From a virus: a stretch of 36,810 bases of DNA. The position numbers were made by a program, and so were the translations under genes. This document shows, one piece after another, positions 27,926 through 36,166 of this stretch. Positions within the stretch are counted from its first letter, which is position 1, and the number at the start of each line of letters is the position of its first letter. The stretch spans positions 1-36,810 of IMG/VR virus record IMGVR_UViG_3300046007_010263; one strand, given 5' to 3'. The notes below the pieces were generated by a model. It had not been told where the DNA came from. It ran no database searches and saw nothing but the letters and a program-made list of their open reading frames with translations.

Positions 27926-28468
27926 CTAATTTTTTAAGAAGTCTACCCAAAGACTTACTGATATACTATGTAATATATGGAATAATTCCCCAATTTCCAA
28001 CCCCGTTATTGATACCTTTCTACTACGAAGTATCTCTCCTTCATCAACTCCTTCTGTTACTCTATGAATAACACATCCTGAAGATTCTAATCCTAAATCA
28101 AAAGCTTTTTGCTGAGGATCTTTTCCTTTTAGTTCTGGATATTCAGTTATAAGTCCTGGATGTCCGTTGTAGATCTCAAATCGATTACAGATATCTGGAG
28201 GCATAATTCTCAACCATCCATGTAGAGTTACAACTGGATTGATATAAGAACCTAAAGCTAAACCTATTTCTTCTTCTGAAGGTTTATTATCTAGAAAAAT
28301 TAAATGCTTATTCTCCAAAGCCGGGTGAATCTTTCTAAGATGCTCTGGTCTTTCGTTTGTAACTATCATATCAGGCCATCTTCCTAAAAGCTTTGACACT
28401 TCTACGATCTCTGATCCTGTTTGTGAAAAAAAAAAAACTATCCAAGGTCTTTTTGGAATATTACTCAT
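27926..28468 (-). CDS. PurN-like formyltransferase, candidate preQ1 formyltransferase (DpdN-type)
   Basis: The 180-residue product has the formyltransferase core: LHGWLRIMP (84-90), Asn101-G-His103-P (YNGHPG), and H-R-V-T-E-G-V-Asp142-E-G-E. These match the catalytic Asn, His and Asp of GAR transformylase PurN, but the protein is about 30 residues shorter and the N terminus (FFFSQTGSE) is changed. From memory of the literature, phages with 7-(formylamino)methyl-7-deazaguanine in DNA carry a formyltransferase called DpdN. With queF and a dpdA-like gene close by, that role is more attractive than purine synthesis, of which no other gene is seen. Confidence 0.7.
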   Translation of the reverse strand: MSNIPKRPWIVFFFSQTGSEIVEVSKLLGRWPDMIVTNERPEHLRKIHPALENKHLIFLDNKPSEEEIGLALGSYINPVVTLHGWLRIMPPDICNRFEIYNGHPGLITEYPELKGKDPQQKAFDLGLESSGCVIHRVTEGVDEGEILRSRKVSITGLEIGELFHILHSISVSLWVDFLKN

Positions 28469-29240
28469 TTTTATTTTTTCTTTTTAAATTATTATACGTT
28501 GTCCAATCTGATTTACTTCGTTTTATATTTAGTTCTTCTATTACTTTTAATATAGGACTTTCGCTTTTAAATCCCAACTCTTTAGCAATCTGTTTACATC
28601 CTATCCACTCTTTTAAGTACCTATTCTTAATATATTCTTTCTGTTCTTGAGAAAAATTTGGATTTCTTGAACCTAGTAAGATTCCTGCTTCACGTAGGGC
28701 TTTTTGTGATTCGTGCCTATCTTTAACATCCTCTCCTGCTCTTAAAAGTACTCTTTTACAAAGGTATTTAGATAGGCCTGATTGATTAGAGACTTCTTTT
28801 AAAGTCTTTATTTTAAGACTTTTCCAAATACTTAGTAGAACTTCTTGCTGCTCTACAGATACTTTTTTATAATTTGGACTAGCTTCTCCTTTAGGAGGGG
28901 AATATTGTTCAGACCTCTTCTTAAAAATCTCTTCTTTGTTAGGGTGAGTAGATATTGTATCCCCTCCTTCTCCTCCTTTTGCAATATTAAATACCCCTTG
29001 TTCTGCTATATACATTACCTCTTTTCGATTTAACTCCTGTAAGCAGTCTATATGTTCTTCTATAATCCGAAAGGATATCCTTTTTGCATCTTTATTAAAA
29101 ATATTTTGCAGATATGGATTGTGATGCCTATTATGTAGGAGTAACGTTAAGTGCTCCTTTACTCTTTGTCTAAAAGGTCTTTCTGTTTTTCCAATATACC
29201 CTTTTCCTGTTTCATTATCAACTATCTTATAAATTATCAT
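28461..29240 (-). CDS. GIY-YIG homing endonuclease
   Basis: The 259-residue protein begins with I-Y-K-I-V-D and G-K-G-Y-I-G-K-T (GIY-YIG core), then R-Q-R-V-K-E-H-L (catalytic Arg region) and L-N-R-K-E-V-M-Y-I-A-E (metal Glu). The C-terminal part (about 130-259) holds helix-turn-helix-like repeats (KEVSNQSGLSKYLCKRVLL and CKQIAKELGFKSESPILKVI) for DNA recognition. Its stop overlaps the formyltransferase start (ATGAGTAA), and a class A motif lies seven bases before its ATG. It is a selfish free-standing element, not part of the pathway. Confidence 0.88.
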   Translation of the reverse strand: MIIYKIVDNETGKGYIGKTERPFRQRVKEHLTLLLHNRHHNPYLQNIFNKDAKRISFRIIEEHIDCLQELNRKEVMYIAEQGVFNIAKGGEGGDTISTHPNKEEIFKKRSEQYSPPKGEASPNYKKVSVEQQEVLLSIWKSLKIKTLKEVSNQSGLSKYLCKRVLLRAGEDVKDRHESQKALREAGILLGSRNPNFSQEQKEYIKNRYLKEWIGCKQIAKELGFKSESPILKVIEELNIKRSKSDWTTYNNLKRKNKNE

Positions 29241-29247
29241 ACTAATC

Positions 29248-29261
29248 TTTATTATAAATAG
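29248..29261 (-). promoter_or_regulatory. Class A motif CTATTTATAATAAA before the first GIY-YIG gene
   Basis: A full match to CTATTTATWATAAA on the minus strand, seven bases before the ATG. It also overlaps a short AGGAG-preceded reading frame of eight codons (MTIYNKD), of doubtful meaning. Confidence 0.5.
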
Positions 29262-29288: not shown

Positions 29289-29492
29289 TTATATATCTGG
29301 CTTTTCTAATATACCTATTTCGTACTGTATTATGTCATCTTCATCTACAAAGAAGAATCGTTTACCAACTCTTAGGCTGTATGCTGATTTTCTCCCTAAA
29401 TCTAAATTAATGTATGCAAATACTTCTGCATCTACTATTTCATTATCAGAATTTAAAAGCACTTTTTCTCCTATCTTATACTTTCTTTCCAT
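29289..29492 (-). CDS. Small beta-rich hypothetical protein
   Basis: The 67-residue protein has K-I-G-E-K-V-L-L-N-S-D-N and later R-V-G-K-R-F-F-F-V-D-E-D-D, suggesting a small SH3- or Tudor-like barrel. No family recognised. It overlaps the end of the dpdA-like gene by 17 bases, so it probably belongs to that operon. Confidence 0.55.
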   Translation of the reverse strand: MERKYKIGEKVLLNSDNEIVDAEVFAYINLDLGRKSAYSLRVGKRFFFVDEDDIIQYEIGILEKPDI

Positions 29493-30279
29493 TTACAAGC
29501 CAATTGAACTTATGTATATTCCCCTGAACTTTGTTTAAATCTACCTGGTCTGCAGGGTAGTTTATAAGTTCGAATAGTTTTTGAGAGTCTTTATGCCATA
29601 GTCCCATTTCTCCGTAAGATGTCCCTTTTATAGCTGCTACTACCGGATTTGATGTATCAATAGAGTATATCCATTTGTAATCCGAATAGAAAGAGAATTC
29701 CAAGGCAATCGAACATCCTAATAAATGGTGTTTCTTCTCCTCGTTTATAACACCGTCTCTCAATAGATCTCCCAGTAGCTTAACCCTTCCCATAGCCCAG
29801 CTTACCAGTTTATTAGGATGTGGAAAAGTCTGCGTATAGTACGAATAGTCAAATGAAATTGCAATCATATCTACATTTGCAATCTTATCCATATACTCAT
29901 AACAGATTTTAATCTGCTCGTAAGTCTTTCCTTGAACAACTCCTATTTTCTTTCCTGGAAGATTTTTATACTTGTTATTCCATTCTGTCATTTGCTGTAC
30001 AGTCTTCTTTGCATCTTCTAAAGCATCTGGAACTATATACCAGTCTGGTTTTAGTTCCAATACCCATCCTGCAAACTTCTCTGCATCGAAAGCTTCCTCT
30101 AATTCAAAAATAGAATTATCTAAGATAATTTCTCTACCTGCTTCTTTAGCATCTTGAAATTGCTTTAAGTACTCTGGATCTTCTTCCAGCAAATGTACCA
30201 AACAGTAATCATAGTCTGTAAGAGATTGTACTGTTTTAAAAATTGATTTTGGAGCCTCATGGGCTATACGTATCGCCAT
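29476..30279 (-). CDS. dpdA: DpdA-like 7-deazaguanine DNA transglycosylase (TGT superfamily)
   Basis: The 267-residue TIM-barrel-like protein matches the TGT family in order: D-N-S-I-F (TGT D-S-G-F-Q region with the first Asp), D-W-Y-I-V-P-D-A (TGT acid loop), K-I-G-V-V-Q-G-K-T (TGT F-G-I-V-Q-G), H-L-L-G-C-S (TGT Y-L-M-G-V-G) and Y-S-I-D-T-S-N-P (TGT nucleophile region D-x-x-x-x-T-R-N). The zinc site and C-terminal part of tRNA enzymes are absent, as in phage DpdA. It would exchange guanine in DNA for a 7-deazaguanine base. The HNH gene ends 23 bases inside its start. Confidence 0.7.
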   Translation of the reverse strand: MAIRIAHEAPKSIFKTVQSLTDYDYCLVHLLEEDPEYLKQFQDAKEAGREIILDNSIFELEEAFDAEKFAGWVLELKPDWYIVPDALEDAKKTVQQMTEWNNKYKNLPGKKIGVVQGKTYEQIKICYEYMDKIANVDMIAISFDYSYYTQTFPHPNKLVSWAMGRVKLLGDLLRDGVINEEKKHHLLGCSIALEFSFYSDYKWIYSIDTSNPVVAAIKGTSYGEMGLWHKDSQKLFELINYPADQVDLNKVQGNIHKFNWLVNGKKV

Positions 30280-30880
30280 AGATTTTTTTAATTTTATTAA
30301 CCCAGTGTTGAAGGGCTGCGTTGGTTATGTTTTTTAGTACACAAATTTCTTTCCTACTATATAACTTTAATAGTTCTTTGTATTCTTCAAGTTGACAGTT
30401 AGCTTCATGCCACCTTACGTTAAGGTCTCTTGCGGTCATTTCCCCGCACCTGCTGCACTGCACTTTAGTTTTTTCCCATTTTTTTCCAGAATTCCAATTT
30501 GGCTTACCTGTTCTTGCATTATTCTTTACTATTTTATCAATAGTTTCTTGTCGTAACTTTTTTCCTTTTTGACCAAAAGCTGCTGCTTCTCTAGCTTCTT
30601 GAAAACCTCTTGAAGAAGTTACCCTTTTTTGACCTCTTCCTACCCGTAACATAGCGTTAAATGCTAAGGCAGTTTGCCTGTCTCTATACATTCTCCATAA
30701 AAGCCAGTGAGCTAGAAAATGCTCTCTTGCTGTCAAGATTATTAGATTTTCTTTATCACCAGTTCCTCCTTTGCATCTAGGTATTATATGATGTATTTCA
30801 TAATAGTTACTGTCTTGCTTTGATCTAGATAGTAATTTTCTTGTTTCGATTAACCTATCGTAATGCCATTTATAATCCAT
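30257..30880 (-). CDS. HNH homing endonuclease with zinc finger
   Basis: The 207-residue protein has the HNH core YEIHHIIPRCKGGTGDKENL followed by T-A-R-E-H-F-L-A-H-W-L-L, then a C-x2-C...H-x3-C finger (CSRCGEMTARDLNVRWHEANC region, residues about 136-157) and a C-terminal helix-turn-helix-like stretch (KEICVLKNITNAALQHWVNK). Its last eight codons are read in another frame from the first codons of the dpdA-like gene. A class A motif stands five bases before its ATG. A short relic of the dpdA-like start lies on its upstream side. Confidence 0.87.
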   Translation of the reverse strand: MDYKWHYDRLIETRKLLSRSKQDSNYYEIHHIIPRCKGGTGDKENLIILTAREHFLAHWLLWRMYRDRQTALAFNAMLRVGRGQKRVTSSRGFQEAREAAAFGQKGKKLRQETIDKIVKNNARTGKPNWNSGKKWEKTKVQCSRCGEMTARDLNVRWHEANCQLEEYKELLKLYSRKEICVLKNITNAALQHWVNKIKKIYGDTYSP

Positions 30881-30885
30881 CTCTT

Positions 30886-30899
30886 TTTATTATAAATAG
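30886..30899 (-). promoter_or_regulatory. Class A motif CTATTTATAATAAA before the HNH gene
   Basis: Full match on the minus strand, five bases before the ATG, identical to the site before the first GIY-YIG gene. Confidence 0.5.
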
Positions 30900-30910
30900 T
30901 TTACTTTAAC

Positions 30911-30934
30911 CTATACATGAGCTATCTTAATCAT
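30911..30934 (-). pseudogene. Probable relic of the dpdA-like gene 5' end
   Basis: An eight-codon frame reads M-I-K-I-A-H-V-stop. The intact gene 600 bases further on starts M-A-I-R-I-A-H-E-A. ATA-GCT-CAT and ATA-GCC-CAT differ at one base. The ATG overlaps the stop of the preceding gene (ATGATTAA), which is just where an operon gene should start. The match is short, so it is weaker evidence than the queE relic. Confidence 0.45.
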
Positions 30935-31127
30935 TTTCTTGGTTTAAATTACTTATATCCTGAAATATACCTTCTATTTGTGAAGAAATACTCTCTACAC
31001 TGTCTTCTAGTTGTTTGTTTACAGACATTTCTAAAGCCTTATACGCTACTGTCAACGGTACTACCTCTGTCTGCAAAGTGTCGAAGTATATTTTATTCTT
31101 TTCTAAAAGATCAACTGCTTCTTGCAT
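30927..31127 (-). CDS. Small helical hypothetical protein
   Basis: The 66-residue protein is almost all helix with heptad-like hydrophobics (AVDLLEKNKIYFDTLQTEVV, then SVESISSQIEGIFQDISNL), so a coiled coil is likely. No family was recognised. It lies one base after the MazG-like gene, and its stop overlaps the relic start described at 30911-30934. Confidence 0.5.
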   Translation of the reverse strand: MQEAVDLLEKNKIYFDTLQTEVVPLTVAYKALEMSVNKQLEDSVESISSQIEGIFQDISNLNQEND

Positions 31128-34176: not shown

Positions 34177-34959
34177 TTATACTTCTCTTTGGTCTTCAAA
34201 TGCAATGATGTGAGGTCTCCAAGTTAATCTGTAACCATTATCTCTAACCCAATCAAACATTTTAGGATATGATTTGAATAAAGCCTCTCTTGAATCTCCT
34301 GCTGGCATGAACCATACTTTATCTTGTGGTATGTCTAATATACTAATACATGCCATAATCTCTTCCAATGCTTCTTGATCCTCTCCGTCCCATACTGGTT
34401 TTAAGTGATAGTCAGAATGATAAGCAATTGATTTGGACATTGCATCATAATTAAGTCTTAGCTTGTTGTGTTGCTTAACCATTTTATCGTCGACCACATC
34501 TCCTTGAGGGGTGAGAATACCAACTCTAGGGACAGAGTTAGAAAACTTCGGAGAAATCGATAACAAGTTGATTGGGTAATCTGTTTCAAGAAAATGACTT
34601 CCTTCGGTCTCAATTGTAATGAAAATATTTCTTTCATGTGCAAAATGTGTTAATTCGTTTACTAATGCTGGATGCATTGTTGGTGATCCTCCAGTTAACA
34701 TCATCTCTGTGATGTGAGGATTCTTGTCGTATGCTTCAATTATATTCTGGAATGAATATTTTCCTTTCTCTGGATGGATTGATGTGTATGGACTATCACA
34801 CCAGCCTCCTTCGTTGAACCAGCAGCGGTGGGTACAGCCACTTGTTCGAATTACAATTGTAGGATATCCTGCTCTACTCCCCTCACTTTGGACTGCGGAA
34901 TAAACTTCAACTATTGGTAAGATTTTATTATAATCTTCAATTCTTTTTAACTTACTCAT
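34177..34959 (-). CDS. queE: 7-carboxy-7-deazaguanine synthase (radical SAM)
   Basis: The 260-residue enzyme turns 6-carboxytetrahydropterin into 7-carboxy-7-deazaguanine. It has Q-S-E-G-S-R-A-G (24-31), R-T-S-G-C, cluster cysteines Cys42, Cys46 and Cys54, W-C-D-S-P-Y-T, and M-L-T-G-G-S-P-T. The cysteine motif is C-x3-C-x7-C, five residues longer than the usual C-x3-C-x2-C. The first 30 codons are a second copy of those in the relic at 36071-36166. The GIY-YIG gene ends in its start (ATGA overlap), which shows that the present start belongs to the endonuclease-linked version. Confidence 0.9.
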   Translation of the reverse strand: MSKLKRIEDYNKILPIVEVYSAVQSEGSRAGYPTIVIRTSGCTHRCWFNEGGWCDSPYTSIHPEKGKYSFQNIIEAYDKNPHITEMMLTGGSPTMHPALVNELTHFAHERNIFITIETEGSHFLETDYPINLLSISPKFSNSVPRVGILTPQGDVVDDKMVKQHNKLRLNYDAMSKSIAYHSDYHLKPVWDGEDQEALEEIMACISILDIPQDKVWFMPAGDSREALFKSYPKMFDWVRDNGYRLTWRPHIIAFEDQREV

Positions 34960-35768
34960 ATTACGTTTTCTTTTTTTAACATTAATCTTATTTGTGTATC
35001 ACTTGTATTAAAAATTCTTCCAATTTCTGTAAAGCCTTTGTTCTGTAAATATAATGATTTTATTTCAGAAATCCTATCCCAAAGGTCATTTCTTTTAGGC
35101 TTTTTTAAATCTGCTCTACATTTTTGAGATTCTGAAGGAGATCTTTTTTCTACATTATTCTGTTTTAAAATTCTACCTATTACCTGAGGATGACATTGAT
35201 ATTCTTTTGCTAGTATGTGAATACCCTCTCCTGCTTTATACCTCTCTACAATTTGTTCAGAATTAGTATTTACATCTTTTCTCATATTCCCTGATGGATA
35301 TTTTATTTTAGATTGTTTATTTGATTCAGATTGATTTCTTCTTATATCTGAAGGGATAATTCTGTTTCGTATAACTCCTGCGTCTATTTTATATTCTTGA
35401 GCAATTTCCTCTGCACTCTCTCCTTTTTTATATCTTTCGACAATTAAATCAACATCTTTATAAACATCTAATCTTAGTGAAGCTAAAGCTACCCCAGAAG
35501 GTCCTCCTGTTCTTTGATTGTATGTATTAGGATTTATTACATACAAATAATTTACAAGTTCTATCTCTCTTAAATCTGCTTCTTCTCTAGTATTAAAATA
35601 CTCTAAAATTTCTTTCTTAAAGTTTTTAATTCCTACTTTTTTTATCTCTTCTTTTAAAATTAAAGAAGAACTCATATAAGAATCTTCTTCAGGAAATGGA
35701 TGCGATCTTACTCCAATATATTCTCGATTGTTTAGTAAATTTGTAATTTTGTAAATGTAATGTTTCAT
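34956..35768 (-). CDS. GIY-YIG homing endonuclease (Seg-like) with repeated HTH modules
   Basis: The 270-residue protein begins Y-I-Y-K-I-T-N and R-E-Y-I-G-V (GIY-YIG), with E-A-D-L-R-E-I-E-L-V-N-Y (metal Glu). Residues about 105-270 hold three similar helix-turn-helix-like units: V-E-R-Y-K-K-G-E-S-A-E-E-I-A-Q-E-Y-K, V-E-R-Y-K-A-G-E-G-I-H-I-L-A-K-E-Y-Q, and I-K-S-L-Y-L-Q-N-K-G-F-T-E-I-G. They probably read the target site. Its last codons overlap the queE start by four bases, and a class A motif lies eight bases before its ATG. Confidence 0.88.
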   Translation of the reverse strand: MKHYIYKITNLLNNREYIGVRSHPFPEEDSYMSSSLILKEEIKKVGIKNFKKEILEYFNTREEADLREIELVNYLYVINPNTYNQRTGGPSGVALASLRLDVYKDVDLIVERYKKGESAEEIAQEYKIDAGVIRNRIIPSDIRRNQSESNKQSKIKYPSGNMRKDVNTNSEQIVERYKAGEGIHILAKEYQCHPQVIGRILKQNNVEKRSPSESQKCRADLKKPKRNDLWDRISEIKSLYLQNKGFTEIGRIFNTSDTQIRLMLKKENVI

Positions 35769-35776
35769 AATATTTG

Positions 35777-35790
35777 TTTATTATAAATAT
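35777..35790 (-). promoter_or_regulatory. Class A motif variant (ATATTTATAATAAA) before the second GIY-YIG gene
   Basis: Matches CTATTTATWATAAA at 13 of 14 positions on the minus strand, eight bases before the ATG. Confidence 0.45.
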
Positions 35791-36070: not shown

Positions 36071-36166
36071 TTATTTATTTTTAAATGCTCTACTTCCTTC
36101 TGATTGTACTGCTGTATAAAGCTCTACAATGGGAAGTGTTTTGTTATAATCTTCTATTCTTTTCAT
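36071..36166 (-). pseudogene. Relic of the queE 5' end (31 codons)
   Basis: The frame starts M-K-R-I-E-D-Y-N-K-T-L-P-I-V and goes on through E-L-Y-T-A-V-Q-S-E-G-S-R-A, then F-K-N-K-stop. Intact queE has K-R-I-E-D-Y-N-K-I-L-P-I-V-E-V-Y-S-A-V-Q-S-E-G-S-R-A-G. Over these 26 codons 23 residues are the same, but 19 of 78 bases differ, mostly at synonymous sites. The ATG lies one base after the stop of the preceding gene, the same spacing as between the two genes before it. It is therefore the original gene start, cut off at codon 27. Confidence 0.85.

Follow-up and report, generated by a model that had tools for sequence, protein, structure and literature searches.

A predicted homing endonuclease gene of the HNH type appears to have entered the dpdA gene of a Flavobacterium-type phage after its sixth codon, bringing with it a replacement start for the gene that it interrupted. 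We assign this reading a probability of roughly 0.8, with cutting by the nuclease and protection of its carrier as presumed components, and sequence comparison leaves the history of the insertion itself well supported. In the 36,810-nt stretch of phage DNA that we analyzed (the window), the minus strand carries in order a gene for 66 amino acids, an 18-nt remnant of the old dpdA start (ATGATTAAGATAGCTCAT), a short leader containing TATTTATAATAAA, the HNH gene, and dpdA, with the following coordinates:

30927..31127, minus strand: 66-aa gene upstream of the insertion, whose stop overlaps the start of the relic
30917..30934, minus strand: first six codons of the ancestral dpdA gene (M-I-K-I-A-H, ATGATTAAGATAGCTCAT), a putative relic in a frame that closes at 30911 (V-stop)
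30886..30898, minus strand: leader box TATTTATAATAAA, separated from the HNH start codon by 5 nt
30257..30880, minus strand: predicted HNH homing endonuclease gene, 207 aa (HNH, weak NUMOD3, phrog_655)
30257..30279, minus strand: 23-nt overlap, in which the HNH C-terminal codons and the opening codons of the new dpdA start are read in different frames
30187..30279, minus strand: putative replacement (divergent) dpdA start, ~31 codons, with 40% nucleotide divergence from the uninterrupted relative L006 before codon ~32 and 4% after
29476..30279, minus strand: predicted dpdA-like DNA guanine transglycosylase gene, 267 aa, complete (immuto annotation; matching AlphaFold model)

A preliminary description of this DNA had pointed to a short frame overlapping the stop of the preceding gene, and both the position and the reading of that frame prove exact, with 30934-30911 on the minus strand spelling ATG ATT AAG ATA GCT CAT GTA TAG (M-I-K-I-A-H-V-stop). 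Its further observations, that the intact dpdA protein begins M-A-I-R-I-A-H-E and that the last codons of the HNH gene are read from the first 23 nt of dpdA in a different frame, are likewise borne out, the latter by the 23-nt overlap of the open reading frames at 30257-30880 and 29476-30279. The exact 18-mer ATGATTAARATAGCNCAY occurs a single time in the window, at the predicted position, and with 3 mismatches allowed the expectation from shuffled sequence is 0.68 occurrences anywhere. Since the dpdA relic is so short a motif, its position and its comparison with relatives carry the weight of the argument.

The product of the interrupted gene gave no match in Pfam or in a search of PDB sequences. 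It does match phrog_19058, a homologue in Flavobacterium phage immuto (NC_055915) is annotated as DpdA, and an AlphaFold model of the protein (pLDDT 85) is similar in Foldseek searches to TGT (E 8.5e-8) and to DpdA (7ui4, E 4.4e-6); the family match, the annotation, and the fold similarity together support the prediction of a DpdA-like enzyme. The gene is complete at 267 aa and conserved across its length, and the preQ0 synthesis genes folE and queE are located nearby. The protein encoded by the inserted gene matches the Pfam HNH model above the cut-off, NUMOD3 just below the cut-off, and the homing endonuclease family phrog_655 (E 2e-38), and we classify it from these matches as a predicted free-standing homing endonuclease of the Mob/I-Hmu type. 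As a single query against viral contigs this protein matched its own contig only; the other occupied sites described below were found through searches with dpdA and queE.

Comparison with related phages reveals what the uninterrupted gene looks like. Among 43 dpdA loci of relatives confirmed by tblastn, a sample with which a second, wider set agrees, 29 have a dpdA start reading M-I-K-I-A-H-E, mostly M-I-K-I-A-H-E-S-P-K-S, and in most empty relatives the dpdA ATG overlaps by 8 nt the stop of an upstream small gene homologous to the 66-aa gene. The relic in the window agrees with the dpdA start at the same place in uninterrupted relatives over 18 of 18 nt in L022 and 17 of 18 nt in L012. The expectation that an uninterrupted dpdA would begin M-I-K-I-A-H at the end of a 66-aa-type gene is thus realized in these 29 loci. 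The site itself is polymorphic among related phages, being mostly empty, sometimes occupied, and sometimes marked by remnants.

The new start of dpdA is of a different origin from the rest of the gene. In codon-aligned comparisons with the nearest empty phages, nucleotide identity is 58-61% over codons 3-26 and about 92-97% over codons 39-100. Against L006, compared to codon 150, a changepoint falls at codon ~32, where divergence drops from 0.40 to 0.04 (permutation p = 0.002, the smallest value obtainable in this test). L026, an unrelated occupied locus, has its changepoint relative to the empty L023 at the same place, and for this pair and for the window against L006 and L003 the divergence is 0.33-0.40 before and 0.04-0.07 after. 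The codon-32 changepoint recurs in L018 relative to L011 and L022, though L018 has no nuclease gene. None of 15 pairs of empty loci exhibits an equally strong codon-32 pattern; a weak early rise is present in L011-L012 and L019-L023, and L030-L177 has a strong changepoint, but elsewhere. All dpdA starts joined to a nuclease gene carry one extra codon (M-A-I or M-P-I). No sampled phage emerged as a near donor of the new start in the window, the best N-terminal match being 0.71. Divergence drops at codon ~32, so the start appears to have arrived with the nuclease gene rather than by duplication. The arrangement proposed in the preliminary description, an old start followed by an endonuclease gene and a new start fused to the endonuclease end, therefore holds in its order, with the refinement that the new start is a divergent import of ~31 codons and no copy of the old one.

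Six other contigs carry HNH or GIY-YIG-like nuclease genes at the same dpdA start. L025 and L026 have a different HNH gene, whose overlap with the dpdA start is 32 nt. L024, L136, and L157 have a gene that we assigned to the GIY-YIG-like class by eye from the motif GFVYIW...IIGSH, with Pfam and PHROGs silent or very weak, and the beginning of the same gene is found in L100, where it is cut by the contig end. The proteins encoded by L024:4308-4997 (GIY-YIG-like) and L026:4232-5032 (HNH) have in common their C-terminal ~100 residues and the insertion site and differ in their nuclease halves, which suggests a swap of nuclease domains on one targeting tail.

Remnants of such genes also occur. An independent phage, L172, retains the relic M-I-K-I-A-H-V together with the 3′-terminal ~20 codons of an HNH gene of the window type, and in L176 the sequence ILEYKLK-stop, of the GIY type, lies ahead of M-A-I-R-I-A-H-E; from their sequences, both appear to be nuclease-gene losses caught midway. 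Insertion-free dpdA genes beginning M-A-I, the observation that had been named as contrary to the proposed history, do exist (L018/L020, L153, and L176). They look like footprints of lost nuclease genes rather than the ancestral start, because L176 keeps the nuclease 3′ remnant and L018 has the codon-32 changepoint. For L018 the combination of an M-A-I start with this changepoint and no nuclease gene is probably an older footprint; for L153, which has no remnant, the same interpretation is only probable.

A second insertion in the window, at the start of queE, is built on the same plan as had been proposed, with a relic, a nuclease gene, and a recoded start found in that order:

36086..36166, minus strand: putative relic with 27 codons (81 nt) of the ancestral queE start, MKRIEDYNKTLPIVELYTAVQSEGSRA, then FKNK-stop, matching the empty loci L010 and L054
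35830..36066, minus strand: 78-aa open reading frame inside the insertion, no PHROGs match
35777..35789, minus strand: leader box TATTTATAATAAA upstream of the GIY-YIG gene
34956..35768, minus strand: predicted GIY-YIG homing endonuclease gene, 270 aa, also present at this position in L047, L089, and L090
34707..34959, minus strand: putative replacement (recoded) queE start, about 80 codons, end approximate
34177..34959, minus strand: queE, complete, 260 aa, with a 4-nt overlap between its start and the GIY-YIG stop

The queE relic is 100% identical over 84 nt to the empty L010 and L054, and a 266-nt stretch that includes the upstream gene is 94.7% identical to the empty L004 and L066. The GIY-YIG gene and the recoded queE start are common to the window, L047, L089, and L090; the 78-aa reading frame is present in the window phage only, and relatives with the same GIY-YIG gene have other genes there. 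Between the window and L089, identity is mostly 0.90-0.95 in the nuclease gene, 0.99 in the start, and 0.68-0.82 in the body of queE. With queE bodies that differ by ~25%, the nuclease gene and the start have moved as one block between divergent phages. Other nuclease genes are found at the queE start in L076 (GIY-YIG) and L077 (HNH), and L046, which is nuclease-free, carries part of the altered start. A generic scan for N-terminal relics ranked the queE relic first and did not rank the dpdA relic; its control, random N-termini from the pool of homologous genes, contained real homologues, and we did not take it as a null. The queE case is the stronger of the two.

The box TATTTATAATAAA is present as an exact match 5-8 nt ahead of all 3 endonuclease genes of the window (29248-29260, 30886-30898, and 35777-35789, minus strand), and it also precedes most endonuclease genes in relatives, plus a few non-nuclease genes. 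It is possibly a late-type promoter or leader, and nuclease genes with this common box may therefore have their own expression signal. The third endonuclease gene (28461-29240, minus strand), of the GIY-YIG type, overlaps the next gene, which is formyltransferase-like, by 8 nt; neither a relic nor a visibly recoded start was seen there, and it appears to be an ordinary boundary insertion. Differing HNH-like genes are located near folE in relatives (L018:1782-2465, L024:2639-3184, and L021 near 2200), which suggests that the 7-deazaguanine gene cluster as a whole is a hot spot of homing endonuclease gene insertion. A possible further N-terminal duplicate was noted at L062:713-1041, where MNNLDKQYQSLLQDI lies 328 nt ahead of a gene beginning MNKLDKNYQALLQDI.

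A replacement start fused to the 3′ end of the HNH gene keeps dpdA whole, with the old start left as a seven-codon stub. The nuclease would cut or nick the ordinary dpdA start (ATGATTAARATAGCNCAYGAR...) in a co-infecting phage, and repair from the carrier would copy the nuclease gene and the start together until homology resumes at about codon 32. A resupplied start would recreate the target, so that the carrier would be safe only if the spelling differed; the altered spelling would shield the carrier's own dpdA from renewed cutting. Self-immunity through a respelled start fits the sequences and presumably operates here, although divergence of the donor alone could give the same spelling, and plain co-conversion from a distant phage, with no role in immunity, could account for the divergence of the start. 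In a broader proposal, which we advance tentatively and at somewhat less than even odds, these elements would act in nature as homing drives that bring a recoded rescue of their own: the nuclease genes would attack the starts of 7-deazaguanine pathway genes and carry a replacement start under selection to resist cutting by their own product. Over time the nuclease domains would be exchanged at an unchanged site, with the rescue start retained, and that start would survive the loss of the nuclease as a resistance allele. Engineered homing drives place a nuclease in a needed gene together with a recoded, functional rescue segment that the nuclease should not cut. Unlike these, the window would represent a natural phage case, in which non-cleavage is presumed.

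Ordinary phage recombination could have delivered the nuclease gene and the new start jointly, in which case the spelling would reflect donor distance and confer no protection, and the nuclease might have no activity or act at another site. Mosaicism is frequent among these phages, as seen from the changepoints elsewhere in some empty pairs; the partly altered queE start of the nuclease-free L046 is compatible with such exchange, and the free-standing nucleases of T4 generally cleave at sites hundreds of bases or farther from their own gene (PMC2988022). Random mosaicism does not, however, predict that different nuclease classes would be found repeatedly within the same few nucleotides of dpdA and of queE, and the extra codon common to all nuclease-linked dpdA starts also argues against this explanation, which we regard as unlikely. 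Far less probable is a tandem duplication in place, by which the start was copied to both sides when the HNH gene entered: the two copies encode nearly identical first residues, but they differ at most codons in a gene whose body has 96% identity to that of the nearest empty phage, and the sequence contradicts the match to the relic expected of a recent duplicate.

We consider it similarly improbable that the insert is a group I intron, an intein, or a ribosome-bypass element, removed as RNA or protein or skipped in translation so that the old start is joined to dpdA. Such elements often house nuclease genes, and T4 mobA is tied to the bypassed insert in gene 60 (PMC5009743). Against this, there is no Rfam match in the window to indicate a group I intron, only 36 nt separate the relic from the HNH reading frame and none follow it, and that frame differs from the frame of dpdA and has its own start and stop, unlike an intein; a complete dpdA start is, moreover, already there, and joining would duplicate residues. 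Chance likeness, with dpdA always having begun M-A-I-R and the eight-codon frame being noise, draws on the shortness of the motif and its lack of rank in the generic scan, but is scarcely credible given the full match to L022 at a syntenic position, the 29 of 43 relatives that begin there, and the same relic with an HNH remnant in L172.

The closest known arrangements are found in fungal mitochondria (atp6 of Allomyces and Phlebia, cox2 of Phlebia, and rps3 of Ophiostoma), where a nuclease gene separates the cut-off old end of a gene from a replacement end, sometimes foreign, that restores the protein (PMC4019555). Like these, the phage loci have a dead old end beyond the nuclease gene (18 nt at dpdA, 81 nt at queE) and a full-length restored gene (267 and 260 aa). 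The fungal insertions replace the 3′ end, mostly involve LAGLIDADG nucleases, and reside in organelles, whereas those in the window replace the 5′ end, involve HNH or GIY-YIG nucleases, and reside in a phage, where the nuclease gene and the new start overlap. Since it is the 5′ end that is replaced, the dpdA and queE cases are a variant rather than a member of the fungal kind.

Among phages, T4 mobA in the gene 60 topoisomerase and the corresponding locus of Acinetobacter phage fHyAci03 have a nuclease of the same broad HNH family inside a phage gene (PMC2988022, PMC5009743), and in fHyAci03 the downstream gene part begins within the nuclease 3′ end. Those genes consist of two working parts with no duplicated segment, plus a bypassed insert, whereas dpdA in the window is whole and has a dead old start. 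In Aeh1, the HNH homing endonuclease gene mobE similarly lies within a conserved phage gene, nrdA, but the protein is split into two cooperating pieces without a replacement end (PMC2988022). In the intronless homing of T4 seg and mob genes, flanking sequence travels into the recipient with the nuclease gene by exon co-conversion (PMC2988022); there the neighboring gene is merely converted, whereas in the window the converted stretch is needed to restore the interrupted gene. Loci with related HNH genes in selected T4-type phages were also considered as examples of the same plan and set aside: the fHyAci03 gene is split without a relic, the nuclease gene of MY02 follows its neighbor, and the annotation of 1.244.A and VH1_2019 contains nothing comparable. 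In the open-licence literature searched we found no 5′ replacement in a phage that retains the dead start, and we judge novelty within that limit.

These loci indicate that a selfish nuclease gene can lodge in the opening codons of a phage gene that nevertheless remains whole, as a 5′ counterpart of the 3′-end replacement in fungi. They offer natural pairs, with ordinary or replacement starts and with or without a nuclease gene, for studying cutting, self-immunity, and loss. For gene calling, a short frame ahead of such a nuclease gene should be treated as a dead start, the true start being the one that overlaps the 3′ end of the nuclease gene. As the targets are DNA-modification genes, the spread of nuclease genes would alter the DNA-modification alleles that circulate among phages.
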